NCBI GenBank assembly: GCA_018670825.1
Contig: JABHIW010000140.1
Location: 1-64,000 of the forward strand
Length of the DNA stretch: 64,000 nt
Reading direction: 5' to 3'
Source: Candidatus Scalindua sp.
Lineage (GTDB): Bacteria > Planctomycetota > Brocadiia > Brocadiales > Scalinduaceae
Numbering within the stretch: the first letter of the stretch is position 1; every line of letters begins with the position of its first letter. This document shows, piece by piece, positions 17,017-47,175 of the stretch. Position numbers and translations under genes: made by a program. The notes under the pieces are model-generated. The model did not search any database, was not told where the DNA came from, and saw nothing but the letters and a program-made list of their open reading frames with translations.

Positions 17017-17803
17017 TGTAGAATTCAATCTTTACCCCATCCTTAACTTCTCCCATTTCCAGGGCGTAATCATAAAAAGATTTAAGGCCTCGAACTTCCT
17101 GCTCACCCAAATTATATTTAATCGACTCTTTGAGATACCGGAAGCAACGCTCTTTTTCCATTCCCAGTCTAGCTGCTTCAACATCTGCGATTTCGTCTAA
17201 AGACTTCATTCCACACTCTTTTGCATCAATTAACAGTTTGCTGAGCCCCGGTAATTTAGACCCGGATTTTGTTACCCAGACTGCATAAACAAAAGGCAAC
17301 CCCGTCAACTCATTCCACTCCTCCCCTAAATCCAGTACGATAAAGCCCTCTTCCCGTACTTTCATTGCATCGTCTCCAATGACGAGAAAAGCATCCGCGT
17401 ATTCATTATAAATCTTCCGTTTGTCATCAAGCACAATATATTCCGGGTTCAAAGAGTACTTTTTCCGGAGAATAATTTTTGTGAGAACACACGACGTCAA
17501 GGAATCTTTATCGAGAGCAACAGTCCTGATCTTGTCCATTGAAGGCACTTTAATAAAGAGCTTCACGCTCTCCACCAGACCATTTGAGGCGATAGCGCTT
17601 CCCGGAATAATTTCATAACCGGTACTTCTGAAATAGCCCGCGGATGGCATTGAGATTACGTCCAATTCATCATTTTCAAGCATCTCCGGTAATACCGATG
17701 GAACGCCATACACAATATCTATTTTGTCCGCTTTTTCCTGCAAACCATATATCAACGGTTTTGCATTCATATAGGGAACAACACCAATCTTTAATTTATC
17801 CAT
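17009..17803 (-). CDS. mqnA: Chorismate dehydratase
   Basis: First step of the futalosine menaquinone pathway. The 264-residue protein starts MDKLKIGVVPYMNAKPLIYGL, the standard MqnA N-terminus, with DVISMPSAGYFRS, GSAIASNGLVESVKLF and GLPFVYAVWV typical of this periplasmic-binding-protein-like fold. The frame stays open 26 codons further upstream (to 17881), but that extension is encoded by a dispersed REP-like repeat and is not conserved protein, so ATG 17803 is chosen. The repeat hairpin ends 7 bases before the ATG, exactly where a ribosome binding site would lie, and no SD is visible. The gene overlaps mqnC at its end. Confidence 0.93.
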   Translation of the reverse strand: MDKLKIGVVPYMNAKPLIYGLQEKADKIDIVYGVPSVLPEMLENDELDVISMPSAGYFRSTGYEIIPGSAIASNGLVESVKLFIKVPSMDKIRTVALDKDSLTSCVLTKIILRKKYSLNPEYIVLDDKRKIYNEYADAFLVIGDDAMKVREEGFIVLDLGEEWNELTGLPFVYAVWVTKSGSKLPGLSKLLIDAKECGMKSLDEIADVEAARLGMEKERCFRYLKESIKYNLGEQEVRGLKSFYDYALEMGEVKDGVKIEFYNE

Positions 17804-44610: not shown

Positions 44611-46356
44611 ATGCGAGTTATAGTAGCGAAAAAAGCTGGCTTTTGTATGGGTGTACGTAAGGCAATGGACAACGCATTGGATGCCGCTAATAAAGTTGGA
44701 AGCGATGATAGCACTGTCTATACAGAAGGACCGTTGATACATAATCCCCAGGTACTGGAAAAGCTGGAAAAGCAGGGAATCAGAGCTCTCAAGGAAGACA
44801 CGGATTTGTCAAATAGCACGGTAGTCATCAGGGCTCATGGTATTACACCCAAGAGAAGACAGGAGCTAGAAGCATCAGGCGCTGAGATCAGTGATGCAAC
44901 TTGTCCTCGCGTTAAACGGGTACAATCAATTATCGAAGAAAACACAAAGGAAGGATATTCTACCATAATAGTGGGTGATGAAGGGCATGCTGAAGTAGTT
45001 GGATTACTTGGGTATACTGATGGAAATGGATATGTAATCTCTTCTCCTGAGGAAGTATCAGAATTGCCTGATATGGAAAAAATTTGTATTGTTGCCCAGA
45101 CTACTCAGGACATGAATACTTTTGCAGCAATAGCAGAGAAACTAAAACAGAGATATGAAAATCACAGGGTATTTGACACAATATGCAGCTCTACATCAAG
45201 GCGACAGGAGGAGGTAATCAGCCTAAGCGAAGAGGTTGATGCAATAGTTGTGGTTGGTGGAAGAGGCAGTGCAAATACAAACAGACTTGTTCAAATTTCT
45301 GAAAAGAGAGGTATGCCAACATTCCTCGTAGAGACTGAACAGGAACTGAATTTAAAGAAGCTTGCAGATTATGGTGTAATTGGTGTAACAGCCGGCGCTT
45401 CAACCCCTAACTGGCTACTCCAGAGGGTTGTCGACAAAGTACAGAATTATCAAGGTAAAAAAATCAAAAAGATGCAATTGTTTACTGAAAAAGCGATTAC
45501 AATCTTAATAGGCAGTTTCATGTATATTGGAATTGGAGCAGCAAGTTTCAGCTACTCAAGCTCCGTCCTACTTGGTATAAATCCCAGGATTAAATTCTGT
45601 ACAATTGCAACACTATTTTTGTTTTCAATGTATGTTTTAAACTATTTTGCCAATAAAGAGGCTGCAGCCTTGAGTGAACCATCCAGAGCAAAATTATACG
45701 AAAGACATCAAGGTGTTTTCAAAATTCTCGGCATTGTAGCAGCTATCTTATCTTCAGTTTTGGCGTATACGGTTAACATAGATGCATTTTTCTGTGTATT
45801 TTTTGCATCCTTATTCGGAATAGCGTACCGGGTCTATATAATTCCAAAGAAGCTTACCAGCATTATCAGGTATCGAAGTTTAGCACAAATCCCTGGTTCG
45901 AAAGAGGTGTTTATAAGTATAGCCTGGGCTGTTAGTACAGGTTTAATTCCGTTCTTAGGATCACCGGAATCATCTTTGCCATCGCTTCCTGTTGTACTGG
46001 CGTTTACTTTCAGTATGGTTTTTGTAAGGACAGTATTGCTTGATGTAAGGGACGTTCAAGGTGACCGAATAGTTGGTAAGGAAACAATACCGATAGCAAT
46101 AGGAAAAACCAATACTAAGGCAATGCTCGTTGTGATATCAATATTACTGACAATACTATTAATTGCCAGCCCTAAAATTGGCTGGACTTCCGGATTTTCC
46201 TATTATCTCCTTCCATGTGTTGCGTACGCATGCGGGTATTTGTATCTCTATCACAAGCGCCTTATACCCAGTGATCTAGCCTGTGAAATTATTACCGATT
46301 TTAATTTTATTCTTGCAGGTATAATGGTAGCGATCTGGCACCTTTTTTTAATTTGA
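44611..46356 (+). CDS. ispH: IspH-UbiA fusion: HMBPP reductase joined to a UbiA-like membrane protein
   Basis: A 581-residue fusion. Residues 1-282 are a complete IspH (4-hydroxy-3-methylbut-2-enyl diphosphate reductase): cluster ligands Cys12 (AGFCMGVRKA), Cys98 (DATCPRVKRVQ) and Cys192 (TICSSTSRRQ), and substrate residues in LIHNPQV, RAHGI, EGHAEVVG, QTTQD and AGASTPNWL. Residues 290-581 form about eight TM helices with the second Asp motif of UbiA prenyltransferases, DVRDVQGD (Asp478, Asp481, Asp485) followed by KETIPIAIG. The first motif, normally NDxxDxxxD, reads NYFANKEAA (344-352), so its Asps are missing. No stop or frameshift separates the halves. The first half should make IPP/DMAPP; the second half may be a divergent or inactive prenyltransferase. 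Confidence 0.88.
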   Translation: MRVIVAKKAGFCMGVRKAMDNALDAANKVGSDDSTVYTEGPLIHNPQVLEKLEKQGIRALKEDTDLSNSTVVIRAHGITPKRRQELEASGAEISDATCPRVKRVQSIIEENTKEGYSTIIVGDEGHAEVVGLLGYTDGNGYVISSPEEVSELPDMEKICIVAQTTQDMNTFAAIAEKLKQRYENHRVFDTICSSTSRRQEEVISLSEEVDAIVVVGGRGSANTNRLVQISEKRGMPTFLVETEQELNLKKLADYGVIGVTAGASTPNWLLQRVVDKVQNYQGKKIKKMQLFTEKAITILIGSFMYIGIGAASFSYSSSVLLGINPRIKFCTIATLFLFSMYVLNYFANKEAAALSEPSRAKLYERHQGVFKILGIVAAILSSVLAYTVNIDAFFCVFFASLFGIAYRVYIIPKKLTSIIRYRSLAQIPGSKEVFISIAWAVSTGLIPFLGSPESSLPSLPVVLAFTFSMVFVRTVLLDVRDVQGDRIVGKETIPIAIGKTNTKAMLVVISILLTILLIASPKIGWTSGFSYYLLPCVAYACGYLYLYHKRLIPSDLACEIITDFNFILAGIMVAIWHLFLI

Positions 46357-46479: not shown

Positions 46480-47175
46480 ATGAAATCAAAAATGAAGTCA
46501 GGAAAGCTTTACACTGTTGGTTTTAAGAAGAGCACCAGAAGGAAAATGATTGCAGGCCTCCTTGTTGTTTTGCCAATCTTTGTTACATTTTTTGTAATAA
46601 AATTCTTATTTACCATGATTGGAGGAATCCTCTCTCCTGTAGTGGTTAGAGCCGTCGGTTCTTTCGGGTTTTCTCCAAATAGCAAGATTGATGAGTTTAT
46701 CATAACTGCAGTAGCGTTTATACTCACATTTGTAGCGCTTTATTTTATAGGTGTGGTAGCTACAAACTTTCTTGGAAAGTTTATCATACGTTTTTATGAA
46801 TCGATATTGCACAATGTCCCTGTTATAAAGAATGTATACACATCGTCAAAAAAACTGCTTGAAATTATAAGTCTTCCAACTACACAATCTTTTAAACGTG
46901 TAGTTATAGTTGAATATCCAAGAGTTGGAATGAAGGCATTCGCATTTGTCACAGGTGGCTTAAAGACAAAAGACGGAGCAGTACTATCCAGTATATTTAT
47001 CCCAACAACACCTAATCCCACTTCAGGTTTCTTGATTTATCTTCCTGAGCAAGATATAGAAGAAACTGACCTGAGTATTGAAGAGGGAATGAAACTAATT
47101 GTTTCAGGTGGGATATTAGTACCGGACAGAATGGATCTAACTACTGACACACAAACAAGTGAAGCACATGAGTAG
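46480..47175 (+). CDS. DUF502 membrane protein
   Basis: A 231-residue inner-membrane protein: a basic N-terminus, TM1 (MIAGLLVVLPIFVTFFVIKFLF), TM2 (FIITAVAFILTFVALYFIGVV), and a soluble C-terminal part with YESILHNVPVIKNVYTSSKKL, VVIVEYPRVGMKAFAFVTG, VFIPTTPNPTSGFLIYLP-like sequence and MKLIVSGGILVPD. These are the DUF502 hallmarks. The function of the family is unknown. It follows the IspH-UbiA gene on the same strand, separated by a repeat half-element. Confidence 0.9.
   Translation: MKSKMKSGKLYTVGFKKSTRRKMIAGLLVVLPIFVTFFVIKFLFTMIGGILSPVVVRAVGSFGFSPNSKIDEFIITAVAFILTFVALYFIGVVATNFLGKFIIRFYESILHNVPVIKNVYTSSKKLLEIISLPTTQSFKRVVIVEYPRVGMKAFAFVTGGLKTKDGAVLSSIFIPTTPNPTSGFLIYLPEQDIEETDLSIEEGMKLIVSGGILVPDRMDLTTDTQTSEAHE

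Follow-up and report, generated by a model that had tools for sequence, protein, structure and literature searches.

The window analysed here, a 64,000-nucleotide stretch of DNA from Candidatus Scalindua sp., contains a gene in which an HMBPP reductase (IspH) and a UbiA-like membrane domain are encoded as one chain. In the window's own genome the frame is found again at G000:C175. Its features, together with two other genes of the window, are:

44611 to 46356, forward strand: ispH-ubiA fusion gene, 581 amino acids, one frame with an ATG start and no internal stop
44617 to 45441, forward strand: IspH (LytB) domain, residues 3-277 (Pfam PF02401, E 8e-92; PDB 3dnf, E 5e-61)
45463 to 46353, forward strand: predicted UbiA-fold membrane domain, residues 285-581, nine transmembrane (TM) helices (PF01040, AlphaFold2, Foldseek)
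45640 to 45687, forward strand: degenerate motif 1, N344-YFA-N348-KEA-A352-ALS-E356-P-S-R359, with the Asn and EPxR kept and all three Asp lost
45901 to 45903, forward strand: K431 (in PGSK, at the start of TM5), invariant in 111 of 111 sequences
46027 to 46029, forward strand: R473 (end of TM6), invariant
46042 to 46065, forward strand: second Asp motif, D478xxD481xxxD485 (DVRDVQGD, residues 478-485), intact
46081 to 46083, forward strand: E491 (in GKETIP), present in 110 of 111 sequences of the fused family
46285 to 46299, forward strand: E559 and D563 in TM9, with D or E at 563 in all 111 sequences
46480 to 47175, forward strand: DUF502 membrane protein, the next gene downstream, linked to the fusion only within Brocadiales
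about 17063 to 17794, reverse strand: PF02621 (MqnA/MqnD-type) gene of the futalosine pathway, by PF02621 match

The IspH part of the protein is complete (residues 1-280). PDB structures of IspH match residues 1-283, and the protein scores 284 bits against the NCBIfam ispH model TIGR00216, for which the cut-off is 188. The three cysteines of the IspH cluster (C12, C98 and C192) are all present, as are the active-site residues H44, H76, H126, E128, T164, S220, N222 and S264. This catalytic set is conserved over 111 distinct sequences, in an alignment whose partial rows contain gaps; the exception is T164, with one T-to-S change per non-Brocadiales group. Judged by these residues, the HMBPP reductase half carries its full catalytic set, and IspG, the enzyme that precedes IspH, is also encoded in the window's genome.

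The C-terminal half gave a Pfam UbiA match at residues 371-548 (E 1.5e-12), above the curated cut-off. AlphaFold2 modelled this half, using 61 sequences, as nine long helices (pLDDT 92.0, pTM 0.90), and the full-length fusion was modelled with a pLDDT of 89.4 and a pTM of 0.82. The best solved matches found by Foldseek are the UbiA homologs 4tq3, 4od4 and 4od5 of Archaeoglobus (GPP- and DMAPP-bound) and Aeropyrum, with TM-scores up to 0.73. In these models the C-terminal half is a nine-TM UbiA fold, one helix more than the eight counted in the earlier note on this DNA. That note's basic reading of the locus, a full IspH joined in one frame to a UbiA-like domain, is borne out by the open reading frame, by Pfam and by fused frames in relatives.

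The fusion is widespread. Searching for the C-terminal domain in 98 relatives recovered fused frames of about 580-630 amino acids from almost all genomes of the same genus, family and order, and from a majority of those of the class. A scan of named genomes returned 258 relatives, and the 80 that were kept come from Planctomycetota, Nitrospinota, Nitrospirota/Thermodesulfovibrionia, Zixibacteria, Glassbacteria, Erginobacter and Desulfobacterota. Overall, 130 of the 131 loci that bear the domain are fused, the one exception being cut by a contig end. In wider samples, matches occurred in 113 of 392 Planctomycetota genomes and in 108 of the 247 genomes sampled from the Desulfonema phylum; strong matches were almost always in frames of at least 565 amino acids, weak ones include standalone UbiA relatives, and the E-values from these candidate scans are relative. 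Pairwise distances of the IspH and UbiA halves correlate at r = 0.90 (59 sequences), against a maximum of 0.15 in 2000 permutations, which indicates that the two halves have travelled together. An assembly or annotation error that joined two genes, which the earlier note had named as a way in which its reading could fail, is ruled out for practical purposes by this survey: the same frame occurs in more than 100 genomes, among them complete chromosomes such as that of Ca. Brocadia pituitae (AP021856.1), and we found no point in its favour. Within this sample the fusion is obligate.

Some members of the wider set depart from this layout. Standalone UbiA-like proteins of Planctomycetota (L169:4906-6000, L170, L171, L173 and L178) are distant relatives of the fused domain that share the Lys of TM5 and, in several cases, the Asp of TM9, and lack a canonical motif 1. 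At L174:2070-5648, a frame of 1193 amino acids has about 620 residues ahead of IspH-UbiA that have no Pfam match and may be a fortuitous open frame.

Within Brocadiales the fusion is also the only IspH found. The earlier note had asked whether a separate canonical ispH exists and the fusion lacks conservation; neither holds: a search of the window's genome and of other Brocadiales turned up no second full-length IspH, and the fusion is conserved in relatives. Two Brocadiales genomes (G011, 94% complete, and G041, 99% complete) encode IspG and gave no IspH match at all, probably because of a missing contig. Outside the order, the genome of locus L130 (G429) encodes a 282-residue standalone IspH in addition to a fused IspH-UbiA, possibly a paralogue or contamination. 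The coupling of IspH to the membrane suggested in the earlier note is supported in that a genuine and conserved fusion, which is also the sole IspH, would place this enzyme at the membrane.

The two Asp motifs of the UbiA half have had different fates. The register was set by aligning the family profile to chlorophyll a synthase with HMMER, together with the shared N and EPxR anchors: N-D-x-x-D-x-x-x-D-A-I-N-E-P-Y-R of the synthase faces N344-Y-F-A-N-K-E-A-A-A-L-S-E-P-S-R of the window protein; the fused-domain profile aligned weakly to the local MqnP-like set alone. Positions 2, 5 and 9 of the canonical NDxxDxxxD are therefore Y, N and A here, and the first motif is not matched. As the earlier note had it, only DVRDVQGD is kept, and in this register the loss of all motif-1 Asp extends to nearly the whole order. 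Asp is found at position 2 in none of the 111 distinct sequences, and 47 of 50 Brocadiales sequences are without an acid at both positions 5 and 9, D5 being present in three Scalindua-type sequences. Other phyla keep D5 alone, E5 with D9, or D9 alone, both Asp being rare, and one further Planctomycetota lineage has neither D5 nor D9. In the second motif, D485 is present in 111 of 111 sequences and D478 in 89% overall. Aligned in this way, motif 1 is degenerate family-wide and wholly lost in two lineages. When the motif columns are left out of the tree, three changes are required to explain where any motif-1 acid is present or absent; the simplest set is a loss in the ancestor of Brocadiales, another in the second Planctomycetota lineage and the reappearance of D5 in the window's genus, where the N-to-D change in motif 1 does occur; the tree behind this putative history is a quick one with long branches near the root.

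Apart from motif 1, the domain is strongly constrained. K431, R473, D485 and G498 are invariant and E491 and E559 nearly so, and conservation by segment peaks in the helix of loop 6-7, TM5, loop 4-5 and TM2/loop 2-3. These top-conserved segments include the cap region that covers the active site in UbiA proteins (described in PMC9314443). Because this cytoplasmic cap is strictly conserved, a purely structural role for the domain is less favoured.

A conserved isoprenoid gene neighbourhood across phyla was not found around the fusion, nor was an acceptor-making gene linked to it. The DUF502 gene lies downstream on the same strand at 34 of 34 Brocadiales loci in view and at 0 of 50 loci outside the order. 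An isoprenoid operon was considered and rejected, as the neighbours vary across phyla and only DUF502 is constant, within Brocadiales. In Brocadiaceae a polyprenyl synthase gene lies four to five genes from the fusion, on the opposite strand; the window's genome has two polyprenyl synthase copies, both on other contigs and not adjoining the fusion. The earlier note had also pointed to a futalosine pathway in this organism and a conceivable link of the fusion to quinone. The pathway genes are there, with PF02621 matches on contig C15 and in the window, but a specific quinone link is unsupported because the genome encodes a separate UbiA/MqnP-like prenyltransferase (contig C158) that passes the TIGR01475 cut-off. 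Another UbiA-family match in this genome (G000:C64:18424-18864, 98 bits) contains an internal TGA and is possibly a broken gene.

The IspH-UbiA architecture itself has been known since 2015, when Rao et al. (Chem Sci, PMC4746011) described 47 such fusions, primarily from Desulfobacterales, with a UbiA part of the PT_UbiA_5 type. They placed all IspH-UbiA proteins in sulfate-reducing anaerobes and reported two DXXXD repeats; as to function, they put forward a local supply of IPP/DMAPP or membrane localisation, and they obtained no intact IspH-UbiA protein (PMC4746011). The literature searched held no later experimental work on IspH-UbiA, only a citation. Our survey recovered homologous fused proteins in Desulfobacterales, and in those aligned here the first DXXXD stands at positions 9-13 (for example NADYYND in L151), four residues downstream of the canonical D5-x3-D9. 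The protein studied here resembles the published fusions in having IspH at the N-terminus and a UbiA-like domain at the C-terminus of one chain, in genomes with a separate UbiA/MenA-type enzyme, but it is order-wide in Brocadiales, has no Asp in motif 1 and retains only the second DXXXD repeat. What is new is this occurrence across the anammox order and the degeneration of motif 1 family-wide, with full loss in two lineages.

Other known systems share parts of this design. With the UbiA superfamily (AfUbiA 4TQ3, ApUbiA 4OD4/4OD5, DGGGPS 6M31 and ChlG 9SAU), the fused protein has in common the nine-helix fold, the DxxDxxxD motif and the Asn of motif 1, and with ChlG the EPxR that follows motif 1; unlike them, it lacks the motif-1 Asp, and features peculiar to the fused family are an invariant K431 in TM5, E491 and an acidic pair in TM9. 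IspH-RPS1 fusions of Clostridia and other anaerobes (PMC4746011) likewise carry a C-terminal partner on IspH, though there the partner is ribosomal protein S1 and not a membrane domain. UBIAD1, which acts as a GGPP sensor and binds HMG-CoA reductase (PMC9314443), is likewise a UbiA-fold protein physically coupled to an enzyme of isoprenoid supply. That system, however, consists of two proteins in the mevalonate pathway of a eukaryote, and UBIAD1 retains D5 and works as an enzyme; the analogy is one of function only.

The account that we favour, tentatively and at somewhat short of even chances, is that IspH is held at the membrane by a UbiA-fold domain that binds prenyl diphosphate and, in Brocadiales, does so without the usual two-metal transfer, for docking and/or sensing. 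The domain would hold the cell's sole IspH at the cytoplasmic face of the membrane, where its cap and cavity may still bind prenyl diphosphate through D478, D481 and D485 together with K431 and R473. In Brocadiales ordinary two-metal prenyl transfer would be impaired, and the purpose of prenyl-diphosphate binding would be to position IspH next to enzymes that act later in isoprenoid synthesis, to gauge how much prenyl diphosphate is present and adjust IspH accordingly, or both. Where D5 or D9 is retained, the UbiA domain may still work as an enzyme. Diphosphate binding without motif 1 is plausible given that mutation of motif 1 in DGGGPS, an enzyme of the UbiA family, costs it its activity while GGPP binding is negligibly affected (reviewed in PMC9385802), and the partnership of UBIAD1 with HMG-CoA reductase provides a precedent for the sensing or docking step. 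A narrower version, in which the Brocadiales domain senses prenyl diphosphate without catalysis and exerts feedback on the final MEP step as a covalent bacterial counterpart of UBIAD1, is an analogy-based proposal that we consider improbable as it stands.

Two other explanations bear on the same evidence. The domain could be a working prenyltransferase whose site is relaxed and possibly holds one metal. IspH would supply it with IPP/DMAPP locally, and its product would be a prenylated lipid; this is the Rosetta-stone proposal of Rao et al. (PMC4746011), and we regard it as a real possibility at roughly one chance in three. It accounts for the intact second Asp motif, the strictly conserved cap and the D5 or E5/D9 kept in several lineages. 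Of the three motif-1 Asp, UBIAD1 has D5 alone (in N102TYYDFSKG) and yet is an enzyme (PMC9314443), so that decay of motif 1 alone is no proof of lost catalysis and a relaxed-site enzyme remains nearly as likely as the binding role that we prefer. Against it stand the lack of both D5 and D9 in Brocadiales and in one other Planctomycetota lineage, the dependence of DGGGPS activity on D66, D70 and the motif-3 Asp (PMC9385802), the separate UbiA/MqnP-like enzyme that covers quinone prenylation, and the absence of an acceptor-making gene among linked neighbours. A passive membrane anchor for IspH, and nothing more, would fit the loss of motif 1 in Brocadiales and the fact that the fusion itself would put IspH on the membrane, but an anchor needs none of K431, R473, D485, E491, E559 or D/E563, all of which show little or no variation over several phyla, and a nine-helix fold is a costly way to anchor a protein. 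The retention of these polar residues makes a pure anchor less likely, and we rate it as rather unlikely.

These observations bear on an architecture that has gone unexplained since 2015 and that is now found as the sole IspH in the anammox order and is present in several phyla. The pattern of a strictly kept cap with a decaying motif 1 points, as far as sequence conservation can indicate, to prenyl-diphosphate binding without ordinary catalysis, and it singles out K431, R473, D485 and E491 as conserved residues. If the domain senses product, the fusion would give the MEP pathway a direct means of feedback control.
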